DNA from: an uncultured Butyrivibrio sp.
Lineage (GTDB): Bacteria; Bacillota; Clostridia; Lachnospirales; Lachnospiraceae
Direction: 5' to 3'
Length of the DNA stretch: 36,791 nucleotides
Assembly: GCA_946546925.1 (NCBI GenBank)
Contig: CAMNOS010000012.1
Span: 1-36,791 of the forward strand
Part shown: piece after piece, positions 1,968 through 35,320 of the stretch
Numbering within the stretch: position 1 is the first letter of the stretch
Layout of the letters: the number at the start of each line of letters is the position of its first letter
The notes under the pieces: generated by a model
Told to the model about the DNA's origin: nothing
Databases searched by the model: none
What the model saw: only the letters and a program-made list of their open reading frames with translations
Made by a program: the position numbers and the translations under genes

Positions 1968-2015
1968 ATATACCCACCCTCATAGATACAAATGTGAAAA
2001 AGAAATTACGGCGTT

Positions 2016-2252: not shown

Positions 2253-2286
2253 ATATCGGTTCCTCTCATGATCATCCCCAAAAGGA

Positions 2287-2901: not shown

Positions 2902-2926
2902 TTTATCCCCCCTGATACAGGTCCTC

Positions 2927-3805: not shown

Positions 3806-3834
3806 TGTGCTCTCCCCCTCAACAGGTTTTTGTA

Positions 3835-5863: not shown

Positions 5864-5885
5864 CTGCAAACTACCTCTAATCTAA

Positions 5886-7979: not shown

Positions 7980-7992
7980 AATCTTTCAGTCC

Positions 7993-11507: not shown

Positions 11508-11522
11508 ATGTTCTCCCTTTCA

Positions 11523-12335: not shown

Positions 12336-12347
12336 TGTCCCCTCCCG

Positions 12348-13505: not shown

Positions 13506-13519
13506 AAGTATGATTCCTT

Positions 13520-14446: not shown

Positions 14447-14461
14447 GATCACCTCTCCTTT

Positions 14462-15379: not shown

Positions 15380-15411
15380 TTTTTCTTCTCCTTCCTATCT
15401 GATGCGCTCTT

Positions 15412-17508: not shown

Positions 17509-17521
17509 CTATTTAACATCC

Positions 17522-19267: not shown

Positions 19268-19272
19268 CTAGC

Positions 19273-19440
19273 TCACCTCGTTGGCTTCATATCAAAAATG
19301 CTCTTTTCCTTGCTCTTCTTGGAGGGATTAAGACTCTTGTTGATACTGGATATCTCGCTGCACCATCTGCGCCTTTCGGCGTGCTCTAGGGCCATTACTT
19401 CGTCCTGTCCCCAGTGGAAGTAGTAGGAGATAAAAGACAT
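19273..19440 (-). CDS. Small DUF6760-like protein, likely expressed by -1 frameshift from the chaperone gene
   Basis: The frame from the stop at 19275-19273 is open upstream to 19509 without any ATG, GTG or TTG before the ATG at 19440. The segment from 19473 to 19273 reads RLYPKDDLYREM, then SFISYYFHWGQDEVMALEHA, then ERRRWCSEISSIN. The FHW...EVMALEH...RRRW core resembles the small DUF6760 family found in eCIS loci near tube genes. Because family-like residues (RLYPKDDLYREM) lie upstream of the first ATG, translation from 19440 (55 aa) would lose them. The only ways to include them are a CTG at 19476 or a -1 frameshift in the upstream gene at 19494-19488. The coordinates given are the ATG-only version. 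It is probably a tail-assembly chaperone part. Confidence 0.75.
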   Translation of the reverse strand: MSFISYYFHWGQDEVMALEHAERRRWCSEISSINKSLNPSKKSKEKSIFDMKPTR

Positions 19441-19472
19441 CTCCCTGTAGAGATCATCCTTGGGATAGAGCC

Positions 19473-19835
19473 TCAGCCCTCCTGTGTAAAATTTATCGGC
19501 ACCTCAAAGGACCTTCCGCAGTCAGGGCAGACGCACTGCATTACGGGTGGCTCCACGTCGTTGATCCTCTGGTACATGTCCTGCAGAAATGCAAGATCGG
19601 CAGTAAAGAGCTGCTCTATCGTGGTCGCCGTAACGGCATCCATTCCTTCAAGCTCTGTCACTACCTTACTGAGGATAACTATTGTCAGATATGAGGGATT
19701 TGCAAGGACTCTCGGATCCCTTGTCGCCGAGATCTCATCGCCCGCAGTCGCAAGCCTCATCCTGCCTCTTTTGTGCACATTACCTGCCCCATCGATATAC
19801 CCCTTTGGAAGAGTAAAATCATAAATCGTTTCCAT
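19473..19835 (-). CDS. Tail-assembly-chaperone-like protein with C-terminal zinc-type cysteines
   Basis: The product is 120 residues from an ATG with AGGAGG upstream. It begins ETIYDFTLPKGYIDGAGNVH, KRGRMRLATAGDEI, and continues with a helical core; it resembles the short proteins encoded next to tail tube genes that act as tail assembly chaperones (phage P2 E/Mu gp41-type). The C-terminus has CVCPDC, a possible zinc site. The frame ends at 19473, while the -1 frame stays open for 72 codons and encodes a DUF6760-like protein. A slippery heptamer, A AAT TTT, occurs in the correct phase at 19494-19488. The frameshifted product would be 187 residues. The gene lies between the two tube genes, as expected for the chaperone. 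Confidence 0.8.
   Translation of the reverse strand: METIYDFTLPKGYIDGAGNVHKRGRMRLATAGDEISATRDPRVLANPSYLTIVILSKVVTELEGMDAVTATTIEQLFTADLAFLQDMYQRINDVEPPVMQCVCPDCGRSFEVPINFTQEG
19488..19494 (-). promoter_or_regulatory. Probable -1 programmed ribosomal frameshift site
   Basis: On the minus strand the bases at 19494-19488 are A AAT TTT in zero-frame phase (ATA AAT TTT ACA), which fits the X XXY YYZ slippery rule. A slip by one base backwards would continue as TAC ACA GGA GGG CTG AGG into the DUF6760-like frame. The zero-frame TGA follows four codons later. Only a weak hairpin (ATCC-CAA-GGAT) is visible downstream, and a GGAGG lies between. Phage P2, lambda and other tail chaperone pairs use the same arrangement. 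Confidence 0.65.
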
Positions 19836-19925: not shown

Positions 19926-20426
19926 TTAGTTAGGAATTACAAGCTCCTCGTATGCTATCTCAACAGACTCAATAGCAACATCACTGTTCTTGGCATCCAT
20001 ATCAGGTGCTGTGTACTTTGTTACCCAGGCATTGGTCAGTGTCCACTGCCTTGCACCCTGTGAAGATGTAACCACAGATGTGGGTGCGCCGGAATTGATA
20101 TCGATGAGCTCGATAGTTACATTCTGACGAGGGATCTGTCCACGCATCTCGCTGACACACTCCATAACCCATGTCTTGAAGGGGCTGGATACGATGTACC
20201 CCATCTTCAATGTAACATTTCCGTGCTTTACAAGTCCGGGGATCTTAACCGGTGCAAGAGATCCGGAATTGCCCTGACGGAACTCGATAACATCAACAGT
20301 TGCCTCTATGCCCGTAACCTCTGAAAACGCTGCAGTACCTGCAATGGAATCCACGGTTACGAGGAAATTCATTTTTGTTAACGGATAGGCTGAACCTTTA
20401 CCGTTATCATATGCTCCAGTAGCCAT
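19926..20426 (-). CDS. Tail tube protein, gp19-like (Afp1/Afp5-like)
   Basis: The product is 166 residues from an ATG with AAAGGAG upstream. The typical tube signature is clear: AYPLTKMNFLVTVDSIAGTA, then FSEVTGIEATVDVIEFRQGN, LVKHGNVTLKMGYI, FKTWVMECV, and a C-terminal WVTKYTAPDMDAKNSDVAIE, SVEIAYEELVIPN. This is the standard length for a tube subunit. It follows the sheath gene by 23 bases and would form the main inner tube of the contractile system. It is the short counterpart of the extended tube protein encoded four genes further on. Confidence 0.95.
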   Translation of the reverse strand: MATGAYDNGKGSAYPLTKMNFLVTVDSIAGTAAFSEVTGIEATVDVIEFRQGNSGSLAPVKIPGLVKHGNVTLKMGYIVSSPFKTWVMECVSEMRGQIPRQNVTIELIDINSGAPTSVVTSSQGARQWTLTNAWVTKYTAPDMDAKNSDVAIESVEIAYEELVIPN

Positions 20427-20449: not shown

Positions 20450-22153
20450 TTATTCTTCTGATCCTTCGCCGCCAGCCTCAGAGGTATGCTGTGTTACTCT
20501 GAAGATTACGAACTCTGCAGGACGGGATGGTGCAATACCGATGTTGCAGATAAGTCTGCCATTCATGATGTCGTCTCTTGTCATTGTGGAAGGTCCGATC
20601 TCTACGAAATAGCTCTCTGCTGCAGAATCGCCTGCGAGCATTCCGTTTCTCCAAAGTCCGTCAAGGAAGTTGGAAATTGTGAGATTAACTCTCTGCCAGA
20701 GAGTAGGATCATTGGGCTCGAATACAACCCAGTTGGTGTTGGCCTTGATACTCTCCTCAACAAAGATGAAGAGCCTTCTGACATTGACATACTTAAATGC
20801 GCTGTTGCTGGAAGCTGTTCTTGCGCCCCAGATGCGGATACCCTGTCCGGGAAGTGTCCTGATGAGGTTGATTCCCTCGGGATTGAGGATATCCTGCTCG
20901 TCCTTGGTATAGTTAACAGAAAGTCCGGTACAGAATACAACTTCATTGGCAGGTGCCTTGTGTACACCGCGGTCAATATCTGTTCTGGAGTAAACACCCA
21001 TTACTGCTCCTGAAGGAGGAACAAAATCAGCCTTGTTGGAGGATCTGTCGAATACCTGGATCCATGGATGATACATAGCACAGTATGTGGAATCAACCAT
21101 CTGTCTGTATCCGATAAGATCAGCTGTCTTATACATCTCCTTAGGCATATCAAGTACTGCAAAGCGGCTTCTGAGTCTCTCGCAGTGAGCTACGAGAGCA
21201 ACTACTGCCTCGGGAATTGTGATTCCCGGCATAGCCATCATGCTGACTGTGTTGTTCTCCATGAATGCCTGAAGACCTGTTCTCTTTCCGGGGCCGTTGT
21301 CCTCACCGATATAGGTGGAGGCATCAACCTTGGAAACCGATCCGTCTGTTCCGCCGTCAAGGAAGAACACGCCGTCTGTCACATCATCACCAAGGATATC
21401 TGCCACAGGGTTTCCTGCGGTCTTCTGCTGAGCAACGTCAACCTTGATGATATCGCTGCCTGCAAGTCTTGAGCCGATGTATCTTGGTGACTGGGTGTTG
21501 AATGAGAGCTCTGTGTAGTTCTCAACGTCATCGCCGAAGCGAACTGACATGTCTACAGTCACAAGATAAAGGAGAGCCTTGGGAATGATATCAGCATCAA
21601 CTGCTGAATCGGGAAGATCATCCTCAAAGGTAACAGTCCTATCAAAGATTGTCTTGATCCTGGTGTAAGTTCCTTCAAACTCAACAAGATCTCCCTCTCT
21701 GAATCCATCAAGAGTCTTTGCTGTAAATCCTGCATCTGTCTTCTCAACAAGCTGTAACTTACGCTTCTTGTTGGTTGAGAGCATAATCTGGATCTTGTTT
21801 CCCCATGTTCCGGGGCTTGATGCTGTTACGGATAAAAGTCCTTTTTTTGCTGTCGCAGGCTTTGCATCTCTTGGAGCAACACGCATTACGTAGCATCTTG
21901 TTCCTCCGTTGTCAAAGAACTGCTCAACGCTGTTAGCCAGGTAGCGGTACTCGCCATAGCCAAACTCTGAGAGGAAGCCGCCAAACTGCTGCTTGAAGCT
22001 TCTCATGCTGGTTACAAGAAGGGGTGCGCCCTCAAGGGGACCTTTCTCTGCCAGTCCGATAAAGCCTGCTGTACTTGTACCTACGCCTTCGATACTCCGT
22101 GGAGAGTTATCATATTCTTCAACGTATACGCCTGGTGATAAATACTCTGCCAT
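20450..22153 (-). CDS. Contractile tail sheath protein
   Basis: The product is 567 residues. The start AEYLSPGVYVEEYDNSPRSI followed by GTSTAGFIGLAEKGP is the usual sheath N-terminus, and the C-terminal sheath core shows VVFEPNDPTLWQRVNLTISN, FLDGLWRNGMLAG, then SRPAEFVIFRVTQ. The middle region (residues about 110-250) is an extra surface domain. Only one sheath gene is found in the window, unlike Afp, which has three. The ATG has AGAGGTAAAG upstream. The protein should polymerise around the tube and contract to drive it. Confidence 0.97.
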   Translation of the reverse strand: MAEYLSPGVYVEEYDNSPRSIEGVGTSTAGFIGLAEKGPLEGAPLLVTSMRSFKQQFGGFLSEFGYGEYRYLANSVEQFFDNGGTRCYVMRVAPRDAKPATAKKGLLSVTASSPGTWGNKIQIMLSTNKKRKLQLVEKTDAGFTAKTLDGFREGDLVEFEGTYTRIKTIFDRTVTFEDDLPDSAVDADIIPKALLYLVTVDMSVRFGDDVENYTELSFNTQSPRYIGSRLAGSDIIKVDVAQQKTAGNPVADILGDDVTDGVFFLDGGTDGSVSKVDASTYIGEDNGPGKRTGLQAFMENNTVSMMAMPGITIPEAVVALVAHCERLRSRFAVLDMPKEMYKTADLIGYRQMVDSTYCAMYHPWIQVFDRSSNKADFVPPSGAVMGVYSRTDIDRGVHKAPANEVVFCTGLSVNYTKDEQDILNPEGINLIRTLPGQGIRIWGARTASSNSAFKYVNVRRLFIFVEESIKANTNWVVFEPNDPTLWQRVNLTISNFLDGLWRNGMLAGDSAAESYFVEIGPSTMTRDDIMNGRLICNIGIAPSRPAEFVIFRVTQHTSEAGGEGSEE

Positions 22154-22177: not shown

Positions 22178-22567
22178 TTACTGTGCTGTTGCCTTGACCT
22201 GTCCGGGATTGGTAATTGATATCTGTCCCGCGTATGCGCAGACCAGTTTGCAATCATTTGTAAGACAGGGTTTGCCGCCGATAAGAACCTTTGGTTTTGT
22301 CGGTATCCAGGTACCTGCAGGAGCCGGGATACAGGGCTGTGGAGTAAGAACTCCAAGTGCCGCTGCGGTAGCTGCCGCAACCTGGGGATTGGCCAGTGAC
22401 GTGCACATTCCGAATGGTCCTACATTGGCAAGACTCTGAGAATCCTGAATGGATCCGCAGGGCTTACCGCCTGCGAGAACCTTGGCCTGGCTGGTAACCT
22501 TAATCGGTGCCGGCGCAGTTCCCATTGTACACACTGCCGTTCCTGTCGCTGTTACAAGATTACTCAT
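22178..22567 (-). CDS. PAAR-like spike tip protein (DUF4280-type)
   Basis: The product is 129 residues, rich in Gly, Ala and Pro, with eight Cys. Two similar halves are visible: ATGTAVCTMGTAPAPIKVTS with AKVLAGGKPCGSIQD, and later TKPKVLIGGKPCLTND with CKLVCAYAGQISI. This duplicated G-G-K-P-C pattern is that of PAAR-like/DUF4280 proteins which sharpen the spike tip and can carry effectors. No C-terminal toxin domain follows. The start overlaps the stop of the preceding gene by eight bases (ATGAGTAA), so the two are translationally coupled. Confidence 0.87.
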   Translation of the reverse strand: MSNLVTATGTAVCTMGTAPAPIKVTSQAKVLAGGKPCGSIQDSQSLANVGPFGMCTSLANPQVAAATAAALGVLTPQPCIPAPAGTWIPTKPKVLIGGKPCLTNDCKLVCAYAGQISITNPGQVKATAQ

Positions 22568-23369
22568 CCTTACTTTCTTCCTTTCCGGTCTCTGGCTCTT
22601 GTTTTACTGCATCCTTTAAAAGATCGATCTCTCCTTTCTCCTCAGAAAAATCAATTTTTCTGAAGTATTCGTCCTCACCCGCTTTGAAATGAAGCAGATA
22701 AGGTAACAATGAGGAGTCGTCTCTGACCTTAAGGACAAACTGCCCATCCGGGCCTGCCCTTCCGTAAACGATACGGAAGATCTTGTCATTGAGCTTGTGC
22801 TCTTTTTCAAGAGGCTCCTTTAAAATGACACTTAGTGGTGCATTCTGCTGTCTGACTTCAAAGACATCGTAGCGCTCACATGTCTCAGAGGCCACTGCAT
22901 AGCTGATAGCATCCAGCATGCATCCACCGCCCGCGCGCACAGGCAAAAGATTCATTGTACAGGTTCCTTTTTTCTCCTGCGCACTTTGGAATAGGGCTAT
23001 CGGGCTGTTCAGATTAACAGCTTCGATATATTCGAGCTTTGAAAGGGTTCCGTAAACTTTCAGTACCGTTCCTCCCAATCGGTTTTTCTCTGACGGCATC
23101 AGGAAAATATCGATCATGGGAAGCCTTGGATCCAGCGCATCAAAATCAACTTCGAGGTCATATGGGTCATATCCGTAAGCATTTATCTGCATGGGAAACT
23201 CTTCCCTGCTTGTGTTTACGAAGACGTAAAGCCCATTTCCTTTTCTGATGGGATGTAAGAATCTTCCATCCTTCAGAAACCTGACGTCGTTTTCAGCAAG
23301 TTCTCTTCCTGTGGTAGTATCCACAAGTCTTACTGCAAGTGATAACTTCGCTGTAATCACTACTGTCAC
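22560..23369 (-). CDS. Unrecognised protein with N-terminal beta-sandwich-like domain
   Basis: I do not recognise a family. The product is 269 residues with a GTG start (GTG ACA GTA GTG) three bases after the upstream stop; the GGGGG in the upstream gene lies about 13 bases before it. The N-terminal 95 residues look like a carboxypeptidase-regulatory/transthyretin-type beta sandwich (LSLAVRLVDTTTGRELAEND, then NGLYVFVNTSREEFPMQINA, YGYDPYDLEV). A second beta-rich half ends in an acidic helical tail. No signal peptide or membrane segment is present. It lies between the terminator-like gene and the PAAR-like gene, whose start it overlaps, so it may assist loading of the spike tip or bind an effector; this is inference. 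Confidence 0.75.
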   Translation of the reverse strand: MTVVITAKLSLAVRLVDTTTGRELAENDVRFLKDGRFLHPIRKGNGLYVFVNTSREEFPMQINAYGYDPYDLEVDFDALDPRLPMIDIFLMPSEKNRLGGTVLKVYGTLSKLEYIEAVNLNSPIALFQSAQEKKGTCTMNLLPVRAGGGCMLDAISYAVASETCERYDVFEVRQQNAPLSVILKEPLEKEHKLNDKIFRIVYGRAGPDGQFVLKVRDDSSLLPYLLHFKAGEDEYFRKIDFSEEKGEIDLLKDAVKQEPETGKEESKDE

Positions 23370-23989: not shown

Positions 23990-26827
23990 TTATTCCTTGA
24001 AATACTCCTGAAGCTCTTTTACATAATTATCAACTGCTGCCTGCTTGGCGGGAGGAAGACAGATCGCGTACTCTGTTCCGTATGCATATTCTGCGTCACA
24101 CCCGAAGTAGTTCAGCGAATCTTTTTCTGCCAGATATACAACTCCGCTGTATGCAACCTTCTCAGTGAGTGTTTCTCCCTCGGAGTCTGTGCTCTCTTTG
24201 TACATCACATCAGATCCCCGTTTGAATATATATACGAGCGACCCCCTTGTCATGGTAGCGGTTGCCTTGGAATCATCATAAAAATATCTGAAATCGGTGC
24301 AGTTGGATATGGTATTCATATCAACATACTCAGTTGCTTTATTGAGCGGATACTGCCCAAACAGGAACCTGTTGTTCTTGTCGCGCATCATGTTTATCGT
24401 CCGCTTTGTAAGGCTCTCAGCCGCTGAAACTCCCATTCTGGAGAGCTTTGAGAGTGTGGCTGCCGCAACTGCAAGTTCGTCCTCGCTCATCTCATCCAGG
24501 CTCTTTCCGAAAAGAGCTTCCAGCTGTGCAAGAAGTGCTGCCGAGTCAGGTCCCGTCTTCGATGCGTTCAGGGAATCCTGCGCGTTTTTGATACCTGCAA
24601 GGGTATCTGCTGACGCTCCGCTGGCTGCTGCCTTATCGGCCAGATCTTTGAGCTTATCCTCTTCTCCGAGTCCCGCAAGAGCATCTGCTATACCGGAAAG
24701 ATCCGCTCCCGCATCATCCGCCAGCTTTGACATAGCCTTGTCAAGAAGTGAGTCTGCCATCTTGCCCTGACCGGAACCTGATCCTGAGCCCGATCCGCTT
24801 CCGGATCCTGAGCCTGATCCTGATCCTGATCCTGAACCGTCTCCGGATCCGCTTCCCGAACCCGATCCGTCTCCCGATCCGTCGCCTCCGGCTCCGTTTC
24901 CGCCGGATTCTCTGTTGATATCATTGTCAACAGCTGCGATCAGCGCGTCATATTTTTTGGCGCCCGCAAGATCGTTGTTGTCGAGGCAGTTGTCTCTCTT
25001 TCCCTGAAGCTCTGCCTTTTTGGCAAGGAGCTCATCAAGCTTGCTGCGAAGCGACTCGTCAGAATCGATTATCTTCTGTGCCTCTTCTCTGAGCCATGCA
25101 AGATGTGCCTCAACCGAGGAGGTTGAGTAGGGTTTGAACTCATCATCCGGAATCTCCTTTAAGAGCTCTTCCGTTATGCTTATCCTCTGATTGACATATT
25201 CAAGAGCATTAGGAGCGGTGTCCCTCTGCCTCATTGCTTCTATCAGGAACTGGAGCATTGTCCTGTGCGTCTCTTCTGTGACCTTCTGTCCCTCAAGGGC
25301 CGTCTTCTTGGCTCCTTCCGAGGAAGCAGCCCGGTAGTCGCTTCCTGCACCGGCTGTTGCAGCGCTGCTGTATCTTCCGGCTGCCATAGAAAGAAGGCTT
25401 GTCTGAAGAAGTGAGAGCTCGCCGTCCTTGTCGCTTATGTTGTTCTCCTGGATATTGGTGGCGTGCTTCAAAAATGCTATAGGTCCGCCTACTGTTGCTC
25501 CTGATGTCTGCTCTATTATCTCTTTGCTGTAATCGTAGATAACATGAGCAAGAAGATCATCGGAATCTATGAGAGCTTTGGCTCTGTAGGTGTTGTAGCT
25601 GTCGTTACAGTTGCCCATTGATGTTCCGATGGCTTCTACAATAGCTGAGTCCTCGCTGAAAGGATACTCGCTTGGAGCATTGTCCGGAACATAATCATCG
25701 TTTTCACTGTTGGCTTCCTCAGCTCTTTGTCTCTTATCGACTTCATAATCTTCAAGAACTGTCCACCATCCGCTTGAAGAACCAAGTATACCGAGTCTCT
25801 TGAACATTTCACGGATGATCGGATCCATAACTGTAGGTGATGAACTGAAGTCGTGCTTATTGGCATCCTCGAGCTTTAAATTGTAATCGGGCTGGGAAGC
25901 CTTGTCCTTGTCCTCACTTGAATCCTTGAAGTTGCCGTAAGGCGTGTAGTAAGTGCCAGTTGCAAGTTCGTTGAGCTTGGAGAGAAGGTTGTTGTCGATC
26001 TCTGAGAGCCTCTCCATGATGAGAAGCCTTCTTGTGGCATCCACCTTGCTCATGAGGTCATATACAAGCTCTGCCTCCTCATCTGAACCTGCCGCCTTGA
26101 GCGCGATATAGGATTCATTGAGGGCTGCAAGCTGTTGGTCACACTTATCAGTCTGAGCATCACGAAGATCCAGTGAAAAGAAAGTCGAGAGCAGCTGATA
26201 ATAGTAAACATCGCTTCGAAGGTTGCCTGAGTCATTGGAATTCTTGTTGCTCAGAAAATCTTCCTGCGAGATCGTGGTCTTGGACTCCGACATGGTGTAC
26301 TGCGTTCTTATGGGGTCAAGCTCAGGCAGTGACGACAGATCATATGGATCGGGAACGTCAAAGGGATTCATTGAAGCAAGAGTCTTGGCATCCTTCATGA
26401 TTCCGTCGGATCCAATATAAAAAGTTACATAGAGAGGATTTATGGTATCTATACTCTCCGGATTACCTGCAGTTGAGATGCCCTGGATACCGTTGTCTAT
26501 TATCCCGGTCTCAAACCACTGCCCGTCGGATAATTCCGACTTGTAGTAGACATTGCTCTGGCCCGATTCTGAAGCAGAATCAACTGCCTTCTCATAGATA
26601 TCGTCTGTGAGGGCATCCTTGTGAACAATGTAGGTACCGATAAAGAGTACCGAGTCCTCAATCGTAGTCCTGGCGCTGAGCTGCTCATAGGTCACAGCCT
26701 TGTCCGGGTCAAATATGGCCCTGGTCACAACGCCTTTGCCAAACACAACTGAAAGGACTGCCGCCGCAAGAACAACAGCGATACCTCTTTTTATGAACTT
26801 TTCAGAAAAGAGCTTTGAAAGTTTCAT
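23990..26827 (-). CDS. Large membrane-anchored extracytoplasmic protein with Ser-Gly linker
   Basis: I do not recognise a family. The product is 945 residues. Residues 12-34 form one hydrophobic segment near the N-terminus (RGIAVVLAAAVLSVVFG), followed by a long, mostly helical region (residues about 200-640) with many Tyr, Asp and Ser. Residues 641-688 are a Gly-Ser-(Asp) linker. After it comes an Ala-rich helical part (690-800) and a beta-rich end (845-925: GSLVYIFKRGSDVMYKEST, GVVYLAEKDSLNYFGCDAEY) that weakly resembles the small copper-amine-oxidase-N-type domains seen in clostridial surface proteins. It starts next to the stop of the TolC-like gene (TAAATG). It probably extends outside the membrane as part of the envelope assembly of this operon. 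Confidence 0.78.
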   Translation of the reverse strand: MKLSKLFSEKFIKRGIAVVLAAAVLSVVFGKGVVTRAIFDPDKAVTYEQLSARTTIEDSVLFIGTYIVHKDALTDDIYEKAVDSASESGQSNVYYKSELSDGQWFETGIIDNGIQGISTAGNPESIDTINPLYVTFYIGSDGIMKDAKTLASMNPFDVPDPYDLSSLPELDPIRTQYTMSESKTTISQEDFLSNKNSNDSGNLRSDVYYYQLLSTFFSLDLRDAQTDKCDQQLAALNESYIALKAAGSDEEAELVYDLMSKVDATRRLLIMERLSEIDNNLLSKLNELATGTYYTPYGNFKDSSEDKDKASQPDYNLKLEDANKHDFSSSPTVMDPIIREMFKRLGILGSSSGWWTVLEDYEVDKRQRAEEANSENDDYVPDNAPSEYPFSEDSAIVEAIGTSMGNCNDSYNTYRAKALIDSDDLLAHVIYDYSKEIIEQTSGATVGGPIAFLKHATNIQENNISDKDGELSLLQTSLLSMAAGRYSSAATAGAGSDYRAASSEGAKKTALEGQKVTEETHRTMLQFLIEAMRQRDTAPNALEYVNQRISITEELLKEIPDDEFKPYSTSSVEAHLAWLREEAQKIIDSDESLRSKLDELLAKKAELQGKRDNCLDNNDLAGAKKYDALIAAVDNDINRESGGNGAGGDGSGDGSGSGSGSGDGSGSGSGSGSGSGSGSGSGSGSGQGKMADSLLDKAMSKLADDAGADLSGIADALAGLGEEDKLKDLADKAAASGASADTLAGIKNAQDSLNASKTGPDSAALLAQLEALFGKSLDEMSEDELAVAAATLSKLSRMGVSAAESLTKRTINMMRDKNNRFLFGQYPLNKATEYVDMNTISNCTDFRYFYDDSKATATMTRGSLVYIFKRGSDVMYKESTDSEGETLTEKVAYSGVVYLAEKDSLNYFGCDAEYAYGTEYAICLPPAKQAAVDNYVKELQEYFKE
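24764..24907 (-). repeat. In-frame Ser-Gly hexamer repeat region (GATC-rich)
   Basis: The codons for residues 641-688 are a run of GGA/GGC TCA/TCC/AGC pairs. On the + strand the region shows many repeats of a six-base unit such as gatcct, and about ten GATC sites fall within roughly 120 bases. Length changes by slippage would stay in frame and would alter only the linker. Confidence 0.8.
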
Positions 26828-28912
26828 TTAGTAATCTTCCTTTCGGAGTACTGCTGAGTTTGCAGAATCAAATCTTGCAGTTTCCACAAGTGCCTCTGAG
26901 TCGTCATAGAACTCGACAGTCAGATCGTCTAGCGACTGGTTCAGAAGTTCCACATATTTAAGAGGCTTGTCTATATCGGTAAACTCATCTTTTCCAAGAG
27001 TCTTACCCTCTTCATTCTTGACCTTATACTTTGTCACGGTTGCTGCCTCTGTGTTCATTGTAAAGGTCAGTTCCACAAGGCCTGTTGTCATATTTCTCTC
27101 TATGAGGAAGGTTCCGATCTGTCCCGGCAGGTCTCTCTTTATCTCATAGCCGCTTCTTACGATCAGAGGTCCGGATTCTACAGTCGGGTCGATGGCCACG
27201 TCGTCAACGAATTCGTCGCCGTTATAGAGCCTTATGATCGCCTCCGACACCATATCAAATGACAGAGCCAGGTGCCGCAGCTTCTTATCACTCCTGGTCC
27301 TTGTTCCAACCTGTACGTTGTTCACCCACAACTCATAATCGGTAAGATCAATCTCAAAATCGTCCGGAATATGAAGTGTAAGTTCAAACTCAGTGCCCTG
27401 GACTATGGATTCCAGTGTATAGTAGGCTCCGTCAGCAGTGTTCTCTTCGATGTAGCTCTCGCCCACAACGGCCGTGTGCATATCTGCATCAGTACCGGAA
27501 AGAAGTGCACTTATTCCGCCGCAGGTCAGCCTGTCGAAGGAATTGAGTGTGGTAGTGTAGAGCTTCATGGCATCCAGCATACTGTTCTGAAGTTCCTCGT
27601 AGCTGTCCATCTGTGAGTCGTACTCCTCAAAGGTAAGCTCGCCCTTCCTGTTGAGAAGTGATGCCTTTCTGAGATCCTCCTGTGCATCATCCACATCTTT
27701 TATATACTGTTTATACGAATTACGGACGGAAATGTAATTGTTAAATGTATCCGTAACGCTCTGATCAAGCTCCTCTTTGGCTGCTATCTTGTCATTGAGT
27801 GCCTGTGCGTAGTCTAAAACGTTCTGCTGCAGGACTGTGGGGTCGTCCTCAATGTATCTGGTTCCGTCGAGATCTCCCTTGAACCAGATCTTCGGGAGCT
27901 TCAAAAACCAGAATATCTTTTTCTTGCCCTTCCAGTGGCTGTCAATCTGAGTGAGGAAATCCTTGTAATCCTTGCTGAAAGCCTTCTTGTTGACCGGGCT
28001 TCCGTTGAGAGCTGCGCTGACATAGGAGGAGATCATTCCGTACTCACTTCCGTAGTGCTGCTTCATGAGACCCGAGTTGGTGGTGAGCTCAGACCTTGAA
28101 GTAAACTCAGTGATGCAGGCCTCATAGTATGTCTGATCTCTGTCACTTGTATACTTCATAAGTCCGTCAAGATGCGATCTCTCAAGAGTTGCCTCTACAA
28201 AGGGCTTCTCAAAAGTGTACTGGGTAGTAACGTCAAAACCCACCATGCCTGACATCTTCTTAAGGTCAGCTTCAAGGCTCCTTCTGTCAGTGGCAATCTT
28301 GTTGGTAAGGGTGGTTACCTTCTTCTCAAGCTTGTCCACATCGCTCTTGTTGGCGGTTCCAAGCCTTAGCCTTGCCTCATTCTTGGCAAGTCCTTCCTGT
28401 GTGGCTTCAAGGCGGCTCTCATTAAAAGCAATTGTCTCCTGAAGTACCACTATATCGCAGTAGAGGTTATTGACCTTTTCATTGATTGCAAAGATCATGT
28501 CGGCGTACTTGTGCTCGGCAACATTTATCTCATACTGCTTGGCTATCGGCTTGAATTTAAATTCTGAAGCCTCTGCAAGATTAGGTTCCTGAGGGAACTT
28601 GAAACTAAGAAGCGGTGACCATCTGAACTGCTTCATGCTGGTCTCCTTGAGCTTAACGGCCTTGACCGCACTCTCGTAGGAGGCCTTCTTGCTCTCAACC
28701 GAGATCTCTGCACTCTCATACTCAGTGGAGTTCTGCACCGCAAGCGCCCTTGCTGCTGCAAGCGTAAGCTTCTGCGGCATCGGTGGCGCAGCCAGAGCTT
28801 CTATAGAAAAAACAGAACCTGACATGACCGACATTGCACATACGGCCGCCATTATGCCGGCAAAGAGGCGCTTACCCATATTCGGTTTGCAAAAAGAATC
28901 AAGCACTCTCAT
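26828..28912 (-). CDS. Exported TolC/outer-membrane-efflux-like coiled-coil protein
   Basis: The product is 694 residues from the ATG at 28912. GGAG directly abuts this ATG; a GTG at 28906 would have better spacing (six bases), so the true start may be there. A signal-peptide-like N-terminus runs to about residue 42 (GKRLFAGIMAAVCAMSVMSG ... EALAA). Two TolC-type helical halves follow: LTLAAARALAVQNSTEYESA at about 49 onwards with GTANKSDVDKLEKKVTTLTN at about 185, and a second half around 370-470 (LLNRKGELTFEEYDSQMDSY). The last 200 residues are beta-rich and unlike TolC. In a Gram-positive cell it cannot be a classical outer-membrane channel; it may be a coiled-coil scaffold reaching across the wall. 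The gene overlaps the MORN gene end. Confidence 0.8.
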   Translation of the reverse strand: MRVLDSFCKPNMGKRLFAGIMAAVCAMSVMSGSVFSIEALAAPPMPQKLTLAAARALAVQNSTEYESAEISVESKKASYESAVKAVKLKETSMKQFRWSPLLSFKFPQEPNLAEASEFKFKPIAKQYEINVAEHKYADMIFAINEKVNNLYCDIVVLQETIAFNESRLEATQEGLAKNEARLRLGTANKSDVDKLEKKVTTLTNKIATDRRSLEADLKKMSGMVGFDVTTQYTFEKPFVEATLERSHLDGLMKYTSDRDQTYYEACITEFTSRSELTTNSGLMKQHYGSEYGMISSYVSAALNGSPVNKKAFSKDYKDFLTQIDSHWKGKKKIFWFLKLPKIWFKGDLDGTRYIEDDPTVLQQNVLDYAQALNDKIAAKEELDQSVTDTFNNYISVRNSYKQYIKDVDDAQEDLRKASLLNRKGELTFEEYDSQMDSYEELQNSMLDAMKLYTTTLNSFDRLTCGGISALLSGTDADMHTAVVGESYIEENTADGAYYTLESIVQGTEFELTLHIPDDFEIDLTDYELWVNNVQVGTRTRSDKKLRHLALSFDMVSEAIIRLYNGDEFVDDVAIDPTVESGPLIVRSGYEIKRDLPGQIGTFLIERNMTTGLVELTFTMNTEAATVTKYKVKNEEGKTLGKDEFTDIDKPLKYVELLNQSLDDLTVEFYDDSEALVETARFDSANSAVLRKEDY

Positions 28913-30137
28913 CTCCTGCACCTGTCAGATAATAAAATTCAAAGTTATCGCTCTTTTCCCTGCAGACAAAGTTGTACATCACATCGCCTCTTCTGTAGGA
29001 ATAGATATAAACAACATAATCTCTGTCAAAGCTGTTGACCTCGGCCACATCAGAAAACTCCTGATTAAGATCCATCTCAACCCTGTCAAGATATGTGGTC
29101 TTTGTACTCTTTATCGTATTGATAGCTATGGCCTCGGGGAGGATTACGTTGGAGTTGCCCTCGTAGCAAGGTTCCCCCAGAACCTCCGTGATCTCTGATA
29201 CCGTATCAAGGAGCTCGCCGCCTATATTACATTCATCAGAGAGAACGTATACGCTGTCCACTGTCTCCTCGTCGTCAAGAGCCTCCTGATCACTTACCGC
29301 GTGATAAATGGCATTTATGCCGTCCATGTAGGCAACCGACTCGGTCTCTGTGGTAAACAGATCCCTGTGTCCCTTGTAGCACTCAGAAACCTGAGACACG
29401 CTCTTACCTAAAAGCTCGGAGTAAACGATGTACCCCATCGCAAATGAACCGGTGTAGATCTCATTTTCGCCTGTGTCATACAAAGTTCCAAGGCCATGGA
29501 AAACTCCCCTTGAGAAAGCCCCCGAATAAGCTCTGCTGCCGTCCTGTCTGTACAGGGTTCCGTCTCCCTCAAAAAGATTCTCGTGGAAGTTTCCTTTGTA
29601 CTTGGGATTGCCATCCTCATAATTGAGATTGCCAAGCCCCTCATACTTGTTCTGGTCGAAGGTTCCGGTGTAGACTACATTTCCCTCCTTGTTGTAGAGG
29701 GTGCCATCACCTGTAACATACCCGTTTTCAACATTCCCGTCGTAGGCGACATAGCCGCTCTTGCCCGTGATCTTCACGTGCCCCTTGGCGGTTCTTAACC
29801 TGAATGCATTGTATTTGTAGGTCCTTATGCCGTCTTCCGAGAAATTTCTGAACAGACTGGTCTCAGTTGTTATGTACCAGATGCTCACAACGCCCACTAT
29901 GATAACAAGGGCATAGAGAAGACGCTTTGAAAACATCCATCTTCCGATGGTATAGTAGTCGTCTTTATTCCTCGGCTTGACACCCAGAAGACTTGCAAAG
30001 AAATCACGTATCCTTGCAACGATCTTGGTCCTAATGAAGTTCCAGTTTGTATAAAGCTTAAACTTGGTAACAAGTCCGGTCATCCTGGACTTGATGGTCT
30101 GGATCAGAATACCAAGCAGGCCGTTACCACCACCCAT
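28899..30137 (-). CDS. Membrane protein with MORN repeats
   Basis: The product is 412 residues. One hydrophobic segment lies at about 72-91 (LLYALVIIVGVVSIWYITTE). After it, residues about 125-235 contain at least four MORN repeats (YDGNVENGYVTGDGTLYNKE, YTGTFDQNKYEGLGNLNYED, YKGNFHENLFEGDGTLYRQD, YSGAFSRGVFHGLGTLYD). The C-terminal 160 residues have a mixed fold with VLPEAIAINTIKS-like strands. MORN repeats in bacteria typically act as structural beta-strand scaffolds and may contact membrane or wall. The N-terminal 70 residues are basic and cytoplasmic. It lies between the pseudo-cyclase and TolC-like genes and is translated with them; it probably belongs to one envelope complex. Confidence 0.88.
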   Translation of the reverse strand: MGGGNGLLGILIQTIKSRMTGLVTKFKLYTNWNFIRTKIVARIRDFFASLLGVKPRNKDDYYTIGRWMFSKRLLYALVIIVGVVSIWYITTETSLFRNFSEDGIRTYKYNAFRLRTAKGHVKITGKSGYVAYDGNVENGYVTGDGTLYNKEGNVVYTGTFDQNKYEGLGNLNYEDGNPKYKGNFHENLFEGDGTLYRQDGSRAYSGAFSRGVFHGLGTLYDTGENEIYTGSFAMGYIVYSELLGKSVSQVSECYKGHRDLFTTETESVAYMDGINAIYHAVSDQEALDDEETVDSVYVLSDECNIGGELLDTVSEITEVLGEPCYEGNSNVILPEAIAINTIKSTKTTYLDRVEMDLNQEFSDVAEVNSFDRDYVVYIYSYRRGDVMYNFVCREKSDNFEFYYLTGAGDESA

Positions 30138-30150
30138 TTATAAGCCCCCT

Positions 30151-32595
30151 TCATCCAAAGTTGATGATCTTGTGCGCATCACCCTCAGCACTCTCATTGA
30201 GATATCTGTCACTTTCAAACACGTAGAACTTAATGAGAGTATCGTCCGGAGTTTCTTTTAAAAGCTCTGAGAACTTGGTTCTGGCTATGTAGAAGTCCTT
30301 CTCATAGAAGAGGCGAAGTGCCTCCTCATATCTTGCAAGTGTGGAGATCCTGTCAGCCCTCACCTTGGCGGGATGGGCATCGAGTACCTCATAGAGTCTT
30401 ACCATGTTGCCGTCTGAATCTCTTCCCGCATAGCCCATTAAACGAAGCGGAAGCTGTATGTTCTCCCTGTCCCTTACCGTGTCGGTTATCACAAGTCCAA
30501 GCCTGTGCTCGGTGATGAAGCTGCTTATCCTGTAGATAAGCCCCTGGTTGTCTGAATGCATATAGGTCGTCGATTCCTCATCGCTGCCTATAACCCCGAA
30601 CTTCATCCTGTCATAAAACAGTACTGTCGAGAAATTCTCCTGATCTCCGTTCTTGACCAGATTATTGAACAGCTCGATGAAAAATCTGGTACTGCCCTTC
30701 TCGGTCTGGGTAAAGAGAAGCTGAAGTCCAGACATGTCTGAGGCCTTGCCTATTACAATTGCCTCGTGTTCCTTCTGGAACTTGCCGATGGCACCGACGA
30801 TGCTGTCCACCTTCTTCTGTCTTCTTCCGCCTCTTACATCGATTCCGATCATTCCTATGGTTCCGGAAATAGCTGCGCTGTCCCCGTTTACCACTTCCAT
30901 GATGGACTTCTTTCCAAGTACTTTTTCTACGTTCTTGGGTGCAAATCTGTAATATGCTTCCAGAATCCTTACCTTGGTATATTCAATCTCATCAATCCTC
31001 TTGTTGATCTCAACAACCGAATCCCACATATCCTTGACATCACGTCCAATGGTCAAGGGTCTGTCCGGAAGCTTGGTCCCAAGCGCTGCGGCTGAAAGAG
31101 CTCCCTCAAGCGCCGTAAGATCCCTCATGTGGAGCCACCAGATAAGCACAACCAGTGCGCTGGCAGTGGCAAAGATTAAAAGGAACGATATGAATACTGC
31201 CTTGTTGTCAACAAATACCGAAGCGTCCGTGGAGGTGTCATTTATAATACCCACGAGAGCATAGTCCGGTGAAAAGTTCTGTGTCGCAACTCCGATAGCC
31301 CTGTAGTCCTGGCCCTCACATACAAAGTCAACAGCTCCGAACCTCTCGCCAACTGTCAGGGCCCTTGTAAGTGAAGACATATCCAGTCCGTAGATCTCTT
31401 CGATCCTCTGAAGATTTCTTCCGCTGGCACTTGCATATACTACCGAATCTCTAAGTCTATATACGAATACATCATAGAAAATGTCAGCATTTCCTTCTCT
31501 TTTAATAAACTCAGAGATATTCTCCCTGATCACCTTGTATCTCTCAGAATCGTAAAAAGAGCTGTCGGAAAAATTGCTGTTTTCATCAATTCCAGCCGCA
31601 TCAGAAAGAGCCACAAGAGATGATGCCGCAAATCTTGAGTGCTCTACCTCTCTTGCATTGGAATAGCCCCTGGCAACAGCGTAGGTGCCGATTCCAACGA
31701 TCATAAACAGCACCACTTCAGCCAGCAGGATGTAGTAGAAAGTCCTGTTCCTGTTCTCAAATGTTCTGATAAGCAGATTAAGGATCACTGCCCAGATGAT
31801 GAGCGCCGCAACATACCAGATAATATAGGTTGAGTACAGTGTAAAGAGCTGTCCGATGCTCAGCTTCATATTAGACACGGCACTGGCGATATAAGAGTCG
31901 ATCTCGAATACACCCTGAGGAACATCACTGTCTGTCCTTACATAAAGATCTCCGTTTCTGTAAACAGCATCTGCAAAAAAGCGTCCGCTGCTGCTTCTCT
32001 TGGATCTTAATGACTCAACCTTGATGTCATCATTTACAACTTCCTTGGGATCGCGCAGCTGCGATGCATCAATTCCGTAGACCTTAACATATGAGCCGTC
32101 GCTGCTTAATGTGGTGACAAAGAGTCCGCTTCCTTCTGCAGAAAATCCGCATACAACCTCATCATCATCAATAGCGAACCTTGGAGTTTTGGTCTGAAGA
32201 TCAAGCTTCTTATCAAGGCACACCAGTGTGTATGTTGGTGTGCTGCTAAGAGCATCATCATCTCCCTCATCGGGTGTCTCCAGAAAGCCGGAAAGGACAG
32301 CATACACGTTGCCGTCATAGACTGAAACTCCAAGAACCCTTGTGTCACCCAGGCTCTTTGAAAGGAACAGATTAGACACCCTGCCTTTTCCGTTCATCTT
32401 AAAGATCACACCGCTTCCCTTGATGTTCTGAGCATAATAGATGTCGCTTCCGCTTGATGCGTAGTCAGAAAAAGCGGTGTACTCAACACTTATCGATACT
32501 CTGCTCATCACATAGGAAAAGATAAAAAGTGAAAGAGTAAAGCTGATTATATAAAGGACAATTATTATTCTGTTTCGGAAGCTCGTTGATGCCAT
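30151..32595 (-). CDS. Four-TM sensor with degenerate class III cyclase domain and TPR-like tail
   Basis: The product is 814 residues. A TM segment at about 9-30 is followed by an extracellular beta-propeller-like part (about 45-235, repeated YDGN/VYAV/RNGDLYVR-type strands), TMs at about 257-277 and 285-308, a second outer domain (about 310-460), a fourth TM at about 465-487 and a HAMP-like linker. Residues 548-740 match the adenylate-cyclase class III outline (YYRFAPKNVEKVLGKKS, GMIGIDVRGG, GVIGSDEES, GLIYRISSFITEHRLGLVIT, RLMGYAGRD, VRLYEVLDA), but the second metal Asp (GD motif) and the catalytic Asn in the VNxAxRLE motif are replaced, so it is probably a pseudo-cyclase. A TPR-like helix pair follows (YEEALRLFYEKDFYIARTKF). 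It may sense and signal to the machine. Confidence 0.85.
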   Translation of the reverse strand: MASTSFRNRIIIVLYIISFTLSLFIFSYVMSRVSISVEYTAFSDYASSGSDIYYAQNIKGSGVIFKMNGKGRVSNLFLSKSLGDTRVLGVSVYDGNVYAVLSGFLETPDEGDDDALSSTPTYTLVCLDKKLDLQTKTPRFAIDDDEVVCGFSAEGSGLFVTTLSSDGSYVKVYGIDASQLRDPKEVVNDDIKVESLRSKRSSSGRFFADAVYRNGDLYVRTDSDVPQGVFEIDSYIASAVSNMKLSIGQLFTLYSTYIIWYVAALIIWAVILNLLIRTFENRNRTFYYILLAEVVLFMIVGIGTYAVARGYSNAREVEHSRFAASSLVALSDAAGIDENSNFSDSSFYDSERYKVIRENISEFIKREGNADIFYDVFVYRLRDSVVYASASGRNLQRIEEIYGLDMSSLTRALTVGERFGAVDFVCEGQDYRAIGVATQNFSPDYALVGIINDTSTDASVFVDNKAVFISFLLIFATASALVVLIWWLHMRDLTALEGALSAAALGTKLPDRPLTIGRDVKDMWDSVVEINKRIDEIEYTKVRILEAYYRFAPKNVEKVLGKKSIMEVVNGDSAAISGTIGMIGIDVRGGRRQKKVDSIVGAIGKFQKEHEAIVIGKASDMSGLQLLFTQTEKGSTRFFIELFNNLVKNGDQENFSTVLFYDRMKFGVIGSDEESTTYMHSDNQGLIYRISSFITEHRLGLVITDTVRDRENIQLPLRLMGYAGRDSDGNMVRLYEVLDAHPAKVRADRISTLARYEEALRLFYEKDFYIARTKFSELLKETPDDTLIKFYVFESDRYLNESAEGDAHKIINFG

Positions 32596-32609
32596 CTGCA
32601 GTTTCTCCC

Positions 32610-33455
32610 TTACTGAAGCAAACTCTCCGTACCTATCTTCTTGAATGTATTAAAAAGAAGTCTAAACCAGGAATTGCCGCCCAGGAAAAATCTTGAAGCA
32701 ATTATGCTCAGGGCAAATATTCCCAGGATCAGGCTTATCCAGAACAGGACACCTATTATGGTGTCTGCATTTCTCTTTATCCAGAGCTTTATTAAAAACC
32801 ATGGCGTTATCTTCTTTTTGGAAACTGCCGCAATGGTTATATCCCTGTAGAGATCGGTAAACCTGTGGTAACTTCCGTTGGCCACCTTCTTCTCAAGCAA
32901 GTAAAAACTCGTAGCTTTCTGCCCCGACTTTGGCTGCAGCAGCAAAAGGAGTGTCCTGGCACATACATCCGTGCACTCCTTCTCACCTATAGCCGGATCC
33001 ATATTGGCAAGGTCCATTTCGTACCCCAAATAGACCGAACCGTCACTGGATAAGTTCAGCATTCCGCCAGTAAGTAAAAGATATAAAATTGGATATGGGA
33101 GATCTGACGTAATACAGGCCAGAATCGTGCTGATACAGATATCTTCGCACTGAGCCAGTGTCAATGACTCCCCCTCATAGAAGTCAAATAACGGTCTCTC
33201 CTTGTGGTAAGGAAAAACAAGCACATGCTTGTCCCCAACAGCAAAATCGTCAATAAGTACCTGCTCACCTGTCCTTCCCGAGAACTTGAAGAGCTCAAGG
33301 ACCTTTCTGACGGTGTCATGCTGGTGTATCACCACAGTGGTATACAGGATACCCCCGGAAGAAGCCAGGTCTCTGCATATGTAGCAGTCATTGACTTCTC
33401 CCCTACTCTTTGTGGCAACCGGTAAGAGCCGCATTTTGCCTGATTCATAGATCAT
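32610..33455 (-). CDS. Membrane protein with degenerate kinase-like domain
   Basis: The ATG at 33455 is chosen over an upstream TTG because AGGAG lies five bases before it. The product is 281 residues. The N-terminal 210 residues look weakly like a protein kinase fold: a beta-rich N-lobe-like part, VLVFPYHKERPLFDFYEGES (hinge-like), a helical C-lobe-like region, and LNLSSDGSVYLGYEMDL at about 133-149, placed where NxxLD...DFG would stand in kinases but without the catalytic Asp pattern. One or two hydrophobic segments follow at about 233-257 and a short C-terminal tail. It is therefore a candidate pseudokinase anchored by its C-terminus. The fold call is tentative; the membrane topology is firmer. 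Its start overlaps nothing and lies 11 bases after the first gene's stop. Confidence 0.7.
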   Translation of the reverse strand: MIYESGKMRLLPVATKSRGEVNDCYICRDLASSGGILYTTVVIHQHDTVRKVLELFKFSGRTGEQVLIDDFAVGDKHVLVFPYHKERPLFDFYEGESLTLAQCEDICISTILACITSDLPYPILYLLLTGGMLNLSSDGSVYLGYEMDLANMDPAIGEKECTDVCARTLLLLLQPKSGQKATSFYLLEKKVANGSYHRFTDLYRDITIAAVSKKKITPWFLIKLWIKRNADTIIGVLFWISLILGIFALSIIASRFFLGGNSWFRLLFNTFKKIGTESLLQ

Positions 33456-33466
33456 GTGGGCTCCTC

Positions 33467-35320
33467 TCAAAGATTGATATCCGGGATCTTAACTATAGGC
33501 TCGCTCTCCTGCTCTTTAATGCTTCCGGCATCGTCCTCTGTGGCAGTGGACTTGACAATAGCATATGCATATGTGCATACCATAGGCATATCCGAACAGT
33601 AAATGCGCACTTCATATACACCCTCTTTGGCAGGTGCGGTATAAACTCCGTCAGTGGTGACTTCACCGCTTCCGGGAGCAGTAAGTTCATAGGTTATGCT
33701 GCAGGGCTCCATATTGTTGAACTGAACCCCGAAGTAGTAGTTCTCTCTGGGCCTCATGACTACAGTAGGAGTCTTGGCTGTGATAGACTTGCCATAGTAG
33801 TCTGCTGCCTCAAGCTCTTCTCCTGAAGGGAACTTAATGGCTACCCATCTGTAGGTGAGAACAAGGAAATCCACGTCATGAAGAAGTCTGGCTGCAACAA
33901 CAAAGCTTCCCTTGTCATTGAGTACCCTGACTGCAGTCTCGGCATCAACCAGCTGCTGGCTCTGTCTTGAGAACAGCTCGGGGTTGCCATAGACGGTGCT
34001 CTTGGCGCTTGCTCCGATGGTCTGATCCTGTGAAAGGTACTCGTATCCAATGGAAACATAGACGTTACCGCTTCCAAGTCCGTGAGTTATCTCACCGGAA
34101 TACCTTATATCGCCGGCCCTTGCATCCCTTCCGAGAGGAATCTCAAGGACACCTGTCGCTACGTTCTTAAGTTCATTAGCCTTAGGTTCAACTACAGGGG
34201 TATTAACAGCTGACGGTACAGCGCCCATAGCCTTCTCAGTGATATCCGCGTCTTTTACATAGTACTCCATGTAATCTGTGCGGTTTCCTGTCTGTGAAGG
34301 AAGCTCTATGTACTGGTTCTTGCTGATCTCTCTGATATTCTCGATCACATAGGCACTGTCTGTGCGCATCAGATCAATTTCGGCCAGCTTGATCGCTGAT
34401 GCGTTGACAGCCTGTCTCATCTCCAGAGAAAGCTTTCCGGTCTCCCTTCTTATGATGGAAGCAGGGGAATCCTCAGAAAGTCTTATCCTCATGGCAAAGC
34501 TGTTCTCTGCCTGAATCGCCTTATCGTTCTCAAATGCGGCAGCCGAGCCGCTTCTCAATATGACATTGGCCTCTATTCCGGCGCCGTTCTGAACATTCAT
34601 CCAGTAATCAGCACAATATACGCCGCCTTCTGAGAGCTCAATATCATTGACTTCCATATCTATCTGCTGTGAGCCATCGGGAGCAGTAAATCCGGGGATG
34701 TCCAGAGTTCCCTTGTAGGTGAACTTCACATCCTGTCCTGTAAGCTTGTGGATCTCAAGCCTTGCCTTTACATTTCTTCCCTTGCTCACGATCGTGGGCA
34801 TCGTAATAAAGCCTTCAAAGTTAGGGCCTTTGAAAAGCGTCTCCTTCTGAAGGAACTCCGATTCCATCTCGAATCCTTCATCGAATTCTTCCTTATCCAC
34901 AAGGAATATCTCAAATCCTTCACTGATGCGGTTGTACTCGTACTCCTGGTCGGATTCCTTGTGACTTACCGCATATACGGAGTGAATGTCCTTTTCCTTG
35001 AAGCGCACACACAGGCATGCTGTGTCGGACGTAAGATCATCAAAGCCGTCGATAGCAGAGAGCTTCTTGACAAGTGATGTGTCAATAATGATCTCCCTTC
35101 CGCTTCCGTCCATGACAACGCCGCTCTCAATCAGGATTGAGAGGTCGTCCAGATTGACAACGCTGCAGCCACACACAATTCCCGCGCCATACATAAGACT
35201 GTTGATAAAGCGCAGCTTATTGATGTGATAGCTCTGCTCTGCCTGGAAATCTGCTGTTGTGAGCATCTTGCCCGGATAGTAACGATTTCTTTCAAACGGA
35301 TATACTTGATTGCTGGCCAT
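33467..35320 (-). CDS. eCIS-associated protein, first gene of the operon, with C-terminal Ig-like domain
   Basis: The product is 617 residues from an ATG with GGGGG 10 bases upstream. The first 60 residues (PFERNRYYPGKMLTTADFQA, then SYHINKLRFINSLMYGAGIV, CGCSVV) form a motif that I recall from large proteins encoded in many eCIS and phage-tail-like loci; I cannot name the family with certainty. A long beta-rich middle follows. Residues about 520-590 are Ig-like/BIG-type (PCSITYELTAPGSGEVTTDG, VYTAPAKEGVYEVRIYCS). No signal peptide or membrane segment is seen. It is the first gene of the operon and may be an attachment or tail-surface protein; this is inference. Confidence 0.78.
   Translation of the reverse strand: MASNQVYPFERNRYYPGKMLTTADFQAEQSYHINKLRFINSLMYGAGIVCGCSVVNLDDLSILIESGVVMDGSGREIIIDTSLVKKLSAIDGFDDLTSDTACLCVRFKEKDIHSVYAVSHKESDQEYEYNRISEGFEIFLVDKEEFDEGFEMESEFLQKETLFKGPNFEGFITMPTIVSKGRNVKARLEIHKLTGQDVKFTYKGTLDIPGFTAPDGSQQIDMEVNDIELSEGGVYCADYWMNVQNGAGIEANVILRSGSAAAFENDKAIQAENSFAMRIRLSEDSPASIIRRETGKLSLEMRQAVNASAIKLAEIDLMRTDSAYVIENIREISKNQYIELPSQTGNRTDYMEYYVKDADITEKAMGAVPSAVNTPVVEPKANELKNVATGVLEIPLGRDARAGDIRYSGEITHGLGSGNVYVSIGYEYLSQDQTIGASAKSTVYGNPELFSRQSQQLVDAETAVRVLNDKGSFVVAARLLHDVDFLVLTYRWVAIKFPSGEELEAADYYGKSITAKTPTVVMRPRENYYFGVQFNNMEPCSITYELTAPGSGEVTTDGVYTAPAKEGVYEVRIYCSDMPMVCTYAYAIVKSTATEDDAGSIKEQESEPIVKIPDINL

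Follow-up and report, generated by a model that had tools for sequence, protein, structure and literature searches.

A conserved envelope-protein module adjoins contractile injection system genes in Butyrivibrio and its relatives and may hold the machine in the cell envelope

How a contractile machine could dock at, and fire through, the thick wall of a Gram-positive cell is, to our knowledge, an open question, and it is the one raised by a contig of an uncultured Butyrivibrio sp. (CAMNOS010000012.1, assembly GCA_946546925.1). The window analyzed here is this entire contig of 36,791 bases, from a 2.98-Mb draft genome that is 80.6% complete. Its main genes all lie on the minus strand, and it holds sheath, tube, spike, gp25/J baseplate and Pvc16 genes together (Pfam), that is, a contractile injection system (CIS) of the extracellular CIS (eCIS) lineage. 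Six further genes, here called F, E, D, C, B and A in that order (23990 to 35320, minus strand), precede them, with joints of -23 to +14 bp, and run into Pvc16 and the other genes of a complete CIS. A preliminary description of this DNA had reported consecutive envelope and signaling genes in one orientation with tiny gaps before the tail genes, and these joints bear it out. The CIS belongs to a known kind; the new part is the envelope module.

We consider it reasonably probable that the locus encodes a CIS kept at the inner face of the cytoplasmic membrane, which would fire outward like a type VI secretion system (T6SS) through its own membrane complex, unrelated in sequence to TssJLM. A more detailed version, to which we give slightly less than even chances, is a T6SS-like, cell-anchored machine of a monoderm whose trans-envelope complex, having evolved independently of TssJLM, would consist of a pseudokinase hub (E) bound to the baseplate via a CIS13-like protein (F), a dead-cyclase trigger (D) and, often, a barrel-less TolC protein with a stalk (B and A) serving as sleeve or strut through the thick wall. 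The locus suggests that these Gram-positive cells keep such a machine anchored in their own envelope and do not release it.

The preliminary description held that its proposal would fall if the module genes commonly occurred without tail genes, and they do not. Samples of 150 genomes of the family, 246 of the order and 299 of the phylum were searched. Within the family, a sheath gene was found in 16 genomes and B in 8, all 8 within those 16. C was matched at expect values of ≤1.4e-20 in 14 genomes, every one with a sheath; six weaker matches to C came from one sheath genome (G006) and from G013, G050, G087, G136 and G146. D was present in 13 genomes, in 12 of them at CIS loci, the exception (G125) being a D-like gene with only AAA and SH3 matches around it within 33.8 kb. 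Fourteen of the 16 sheath genomes have E and C beside the CIS genes; in G006, B and A lie on a contig that ends there. Along similar lines, Pvc16_N was found in 16 genomes of the order, and strong matches to the E profile (≤1.1e-18, a boundary set after the values were known) mark the identical 16, across several families. At ≤0.001 the profile matches 22 genomes, the other six weakly (5.5e-8 to 7.8e-4), mostly over part of the length and in one case with internal stops. The overlap between Pvc16_N and E would have a chance of 1.9e-25 were genomes independent and of 1.5e-16 by genera, but genomes are not independent. Strong matches to B (≤4.4e-84) occurred in 9 of the 246 genomes, all within the 16 with a CIS, and 16 more were weak (6.1e-8 or worse). 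Across the phylum, Pvc16_N was found in 8 genomes and strong E matches (≤5.7e-17) in 4 of these (the window, G177, G472 and G594) and in no genome without Pvc16_N; seven further matches stood at 1.5e-5 or worse. A tblastn search of 50,697 phage records did not find B, none of its 51 pattern matches in viral contigs was a relative, and E was not found in 72,556 plasmid records; on these comparisons, a mobile or phage origin was rejected.

Gene order was followed in relatives of B. A search of one genome per species (GTDB 220) gave 190, of which the best 80 loci were analyzed; being the strongest matches to B, they favor close relatives. They are titled Butyrivibrio, Lachnospiraceae, Eubacterium, Acetatifactor or less specifically, and many come from rumen samples. 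Carriers in culture include Butyrivibrio sp. AE3009 (L064), AE2015 (L080), Su6 (L081) and FCS014 (L053). Counting only loci whose contig leaves room (room limits were set by us), every gene was present wherever it could be: F in 58/58, E in 62/62, D in 64/64, C and A each in 72/72, Pvc16 in 51/51, the 269-amino-acid (aa) protein that follows it and the PAAR gene each in 48/48, the sheath in 47/47 and the tube in 40/40. None of the 80 loci violated order or strand, and median gaps ranged from -4 to 35.5 bp. Chance or an annotation artefact was rejected because gene order is conserved across these 80 loci.

Mapping was extended to 12 of the 16 order genomes with a CIS (the window, G022, G177, G187, G195, G210, G225, G293, G328, G346, G361 and G384); G166, G231, G350 and G355 are the four Pvc16_N genomes outside the mapped set. 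F and E are adjacent and on the same strand in 24/24 mapped pieces that hold both, and E-(D)-C lies between F and Pvc16 in most mapped loci. Loci carrying B mostly read F-E-D-C-B-A-Pvc16, and those lacking it mostly F-E-C-Pvc16, with D further on and longer MORN proteins, although F-E-D-C was found in G086, G210 and G293. Judging from mapped loci with and without B, therefore, the core consists of E and C beside F, with D present almost everywhere and B and A as optional additions in about half. Mapped onto a tree of 25 E proteins, the distribution of B requires three changes; B may nevertheless have had a single origin.

Structures were predicted for E and B only. The model of E has a kinase fold at the N-terminus, without catalytic motifs, followed by one transmembrane (TM) helix, which is the arrangement of EssB/YukC in the type VIIb secretion system (T7SSb). 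Across 49 aligned rows, the HRD motif is present in 1 and DFG in none, whereas the IGT of the tail is kept in 47. Because HRD and DFG are missing, an active kinase was ruled out for E. About 25 residues follow the TM helix in the window protein, in place of the extracellular helical domain of EssB/YukC. The E profile gave weak matches only among solved structures, the best being a kinase at 0.0061; no EssB-type chain was among these sequence matches, and neither EssB, YukC nor TraF was among the 50 structural matches listed for the model. Within the family, identity to the window protein falls to 13%. In one relative (L159:13938-15092, in G346), E carries a C-terminal LysM wall-binding domain past the IGT tail. 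As to F, no segment exceeds a hydropathy of 1.7, and one weak segment is seen at 39.

The cyclase homology of D was traced through a chain, from the window protein to G125 and CIS-linked relatives and from these to Pfam Guanylate_cyc and HAMP. Directly, Guanylate_cyc was not among the 25 of 32 families listed for 45 aligned D rows, and a profile search against solved structures gave nothing useful. The window protein matches a cyclase with intact motifs in G125 (3.6e-9), which itself matches Guanylate_cyc at 4.8e-14. Among CIS-linked relatives, Guanylate_cyc and HAMP were matched at 1.7e-6 and 2.1e-8 in G022 and at 1.7e-12 and 2.2e-11 in G535; G016 matched HAMP, with Guanylate_cyc below the cut-off, G106, G056 and G086 matched HAMP only, and G054 matched neither. 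The metal-binding Asp was found at the first site in 0/50 rows, at the second in 3/50 and at both in none, in an uncertain alignment (an Asp stands two positions from the first site in the window protein). A further 15 CIS-linked domains, including that of G535, have Asp at the first site in 4 cases and at the second in none; three of these four have one a single residue off. Because the metal-binding Asp is lost, active cyclase signaling was rejected for D, least surely for the tandem copies of G195, G225 and G361. In L149 to L152 (these three genomes and G384), two D-like pseudo-cyclase sensors stand in tandem after the PAAR gene.

For C, the profile matched solved MORN proteins at 1e-19, confirming MORN repeats. 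B has a predicted TolC helical repeat fold, and where TolC has its outer-membrane β-barrel, the monomer model shows stretches of 17 and 34 residues with strands of 2 to 5 residues, far from a barrel with TolC strand lengths as the yardstick. The C-terminal domain of A in relatives matches Cu_amine_oxidN1 (8/28 rows; 3.6e-17 in G187). The genes had been correctly described beforehand, except that the SG linker by which A was characterized is not conserved, [SGDN] runs of at least 12 being found in 8/28 rows. Elsewhere, A occurs as a tandem pair of paralogues (L160:10278-16424, G177), and a 287-aa OEP/TolC-like protein (OEP 7.2e-9) occupies the place of B in G594 (L162:5749-6612). Weak matches to the B profile (e.g., in G235, G383 and G287) are open frames of 365 to 515 aa in order genomes without strong E or Pvc16 matches; they are possibly other TolC-like proteins of Gram-positive bacteria.

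We picture the complex as follows, its contacts, anchoring, firing direction and signal being what we infer. E would be the hub, a role modeled on EssB/YukC in type VII secretion: its cytoplasmic dead kinase domain would bind the machine, most likely through F, a baseplate-rim protein, while its helix would cross the membrane and the conserved IGT tail would dock onto the outer parts of the complex. The anchor would thereby be supplied in trans, with F at the baseplate rim held by E. C, its MORN domain outside, would build the wall part together with B and A where these are present. TolC helices are about 100 Å long, and B would form a helical barrel or struts of that type and length without an outer-membrane barrel, A being a stalk. 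D would detect an outside cue by its extracellular domains and relay it via the catalytically dead cyclase domain to the docked machine. The preliminary description had proposed an envelope complex that receives a signal; the single TM helix, conserved tail and, in one relative, LysM fusion of E fit this, as do the dead cyclase domain of D and the HAMP domain of its relatives, whereas its terms "envelope-spanning," "anchors" and "firing signal" are carried over here as proposals.

Comparison with known systems sets the module apart. With the eCIS lineage the locus shares the sheath, tubes, CIS_tube proteins, hub, spike, PAAR-like tip, gp25, baseplate J, Tail_P2_I/CIS12-like, CIS13-like and Pvc16 proteins and the AAA ATPase; it differs in that E-D-C(-B-A) sits between the CIS13-like gene and Pvc16 and in having no recognized fiber gene besides the CIS13-like one. 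The earlier claim that known eCIS lack such a set was examined among clostridial CIS: over the 20 kb compared, two clusters (G573 and G486) have a CIS but none of the genes E, D, C, B and A, which agrees with it, but a third genome (G535) has a D-like gene beside Pvc16, with no E or C in the piece. A fourth, G555, shows on a 10-kb contig only an AAA match besides Pvc16. The clusters of G573 and G486 (L165 and L166) carry two different sheath genes in tandem. With the TssJLM-anchored T6SS the locus would share the working mode proposed here, a membrane-docked contractile machine firing outward; the IcmF/TssM, TssL and TssJ families were not among the Pfam matches of the six module proteins (expect values up to 1, single sequences), and the hosts are mostly titled Lachnospiraceae or Butyrivibrio, which are Gram-positive.

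T6SS-like use of a CIS without an outer membrane has a precedent in haloarchaea, where Halogeometricum borinquense has a CIS-type machine, no outer membrane and a linked membrane-protein gene (PMC11566945); that protein, Hbor_38620, is predicted to cross the membrane six times and has a cytoplasmic domain of 150 residues, whereas the module comprises several proteins of other make-up. In the thylakoid CIS of Anabaena, the fiber-like Cis13 lies at the membrane contact and carries its own TM helix, and after deletion of this helix, 9 of the 14 machines seen were free-floating (PMC8894136). The CIS13 match of F lies within its first 143 residues, but F has no TM helix of its own, and the next gene, E, encodes a one-TM protein; an anchor in trans appears the simplest reading. 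There is also a precedent among Gram-positive CIS for contraction that depends on a membrane protein: the Streptomyces CIS, which lacks recognized fibers, requires the one-pass membrane protein CisA for contraction and function (PMC12237407). Both that system and the present locus pair a Gram-positive CIS with a one-pass membrane protein. CisA is described as having an unstructured N-terminus and a substrate-binding-like C-terminal domain, and by this description E, with its kinase-like N-terminus and a tail too short for such a domain, is distinct. A membrane pseudokinase is the interaction hub of T7SSb, where YukC seemed to touch every other product of the yuk genes (PMC9600267), and TraF of the Gram-positive pIP501 type IV secretion system (T4SS) is a structural homologue of YukC/EssB (PMC13037476). 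E shares with these a cytoplasmic pseudokinase domain followed by one TM helix in a Gram-positive secretion machine; unlike EssB/YukC, it has only a short outside tail with the IGT motif and no folded outer domain. Relative to TolC/OEP, B has the predicted helical repeat fold in common and differs in its very short hairpin stretches, extra C-terminal β domains and Gram-positive-family host.

Text searches of PubMed Central (PMC) for contractile injection with Butyrivibrio, Lachnospiraceae or MORN repeat gave no description of the module, most subscription papers and bioRxiv lying outside this coverage. The main text of a metagenome CIS survey names no Firmicutes, Bacillota or Lachnospir- (PMC12210884), and loci without fiber candidates are out of the scope of a fiber catalogue (PMC12923769). 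For the Streptomyces CIS, one membrane factor, CisA, is described (PMC12237407). The module, recurring over several families of Butyrivibrio's order, a gut and rumen group, gives concrete candidates for docking at the wall. If the proposal is true, the machine would join T7SSb and the pIP501 T4SS as the third of secretion type in Gram-positive bacteria to have a membrane pseudokinase, and B would be a case of a TolC fold working without an outer membrane.

Several observations weigh against an anchored, outward-firing machine. F, being CIS13-like, may be a fiber, which would suit a released particle. The N-terminal side of C is the more positive one in 32/51 proteins, a weak support for the topology assumed. 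Since the tube of a CIS is wider than a TolC trimer, B probably does not serve as the conduit and would need to form a wider ring or a strut. Seven of the 16 order genomes with a CIS lack B, and at their loci A was not seen either, so a complete wall part is not universal. Neither G085 nor G104 has D, and in both Pvc16 comes after the tail genes. In G187, E lies on the strand opposite D-C-B-A, and the 20-kb piece showed no F. G046 has an in-frame stop (TAG) in its sheath gene and no module adjoining, and 4 of the 8 Pvc16 genomes of the phylum sample have no strong E match. In G046 (L032-L033), the sheath-like gene is alone, without recognized tail neighbors in 40 kb, and a 312-aa protein matches the E profile weakly (6e-4).

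Other readings accommodate parts of this evidence. The module could act in the membrane as the receiver of a cytoplasmic CIS that, under stress, is discharged at or across the membrane of the cell itself, as has been proposed for the CIS of Streptomyces with CisA or of thylakoids, without being a contact weapon. In favor of this, a Gram-positive CIS without recognized fibers depends on the membrane protein CisA to contract and to function (PMC12237407), and the STAS and HATPase proteins of the locus resemble stress or partner-switch regulators. CisA is, however, one protein, against three conserved membrane proteins here and exported proteins in about half of the lineages, and firing at the own membrane needs none of the outside-reaching parts that the module has, including the LysM fusion of one relative; we consider this reading unlikely. 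We give still less credence to an exit gate or wall opener for finished particles that act as free eCIS. The TolC-type export fold of B would suit it, as would F if a fiber, and the FtsE-like ATPase of the locus could be added, since relatives of FtsE control wall hydrolases; but the window showed no FtsX-like partner, Pfam matched none of the 30 window proteins scanned to a holin or wall hydrolase, and in the 7 order genomes without B, E is still there. The last alternative, that an unrelated envelope sensor or adhesion operon is co-transcribed with the CIS for shared regulation, draws on the resemblance of D, C and A to general sensor, MORN and stalk proteins and on the intact-motif D-like cyclase of G125, around which no gene for sheath, tube or baseplate was seen. 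It is just as improbable, given that E accompanies the CIS in several families of the order even where its sequence has diverged most (13% identity within the family), that E-(D)-C sits between F and Pvc16 in most mapped loci, and that no strong E occurs without Pvc16 in the 246 order and 299 phylum genomes.

Table 1. Genes of the window, from the first gene of the module to the contig end downstream
Feature	Position	Strand	Basis or remark
F, CIS13-family-like, 617 aa, first gene of run	33467..35320	-	NCBIfam NF053767 5.1e-24, residues 9-143, below curated cut-off
E, pseudokinase-like single-pass membrane protein, 286 aa, tail motif IGTESL	32610..33470	-	Predicted model, kinase fold; TM at 238
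D, four-TM sensor, degenerate class III cyclase domain, 814 aa	30151..32595	-	Hydrophobic segments at 10, 258, 289, 458
C, one-TM MORN-repeat protein, 412 aa	28899..30137	-	Pfam MORN 6.4e-4 (just under cut-off); TM at 68
B, exported TolC-fold protein, 697 aa	26828..28921	-	C-terminal β domains; very short hairpins replace outer-membrane barrel
A, exported stalk-like protein with SG-rich linker, 945 aa	23990..26827	-	Signal-type segment
Pvc16_N protein, 201 aa	23373..23978	-	Pfam PF14065 8e-26; tail terminator or cap by name
Conserved 269-aa protein between Pvc16 and PAAR	22560..23369	-	48/48 loci with room
PAAR-like DUF4280 protein	22178..22567	-	Pfam 1.1e-28
Contractile sheath	20450..22153	-	Pfam Phage_sheath_1 5.1e-18
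Tube protein (gp19-like)	19926..20426	-	Pfam 7e-31
Remaining CIS genes	4805..19835	-	120-aa protein, second tube-like, 698-aa, two CIS_tube proteins, hub, spike, gp25, 1019-aa baseplate protein, baseplate J, Tail_P2_I/CIS12-like
Downstream genes	3..4784	-	STAS, FtsE-like ABC ATPase, HATPase protein with hydrophobic N-terminus, SH3 protein
AAA ATPase	within 3..4784	-	Cut by contig end

A scan for promoters and terminators found 15 and 13 sites, against 18.9 and 11.7 in shuffled sequence, and so gave no signal. Among the remaining CIS genes (Table 1), the 120-aa protein (19473-19835) has a CxxC pair near its end and ca. 49 to 90% identity among CIS loci, with no Pfam or NCBIfam match, and the second tube-like protein (17522-19267) carries a long repetitive C-terminal extension. 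The FtsE-like ABC ATPase (TIGR02673 1.1e-70; 237.7 bits, below the cut-off of 264.85) and the STAS protein, anti-sigma-antagonist-like, directly follow the baseplate genes (3835-4784), an arrangement present also in G041, G080 and G129. In the L046 region of G129 (joined coordinates 46472-49393), a 973-aa membrane protein with a weak match to the D profile (2e-7) lies after an RsbW-like gene, downstream of the CIS, and its second half is transporter-like.
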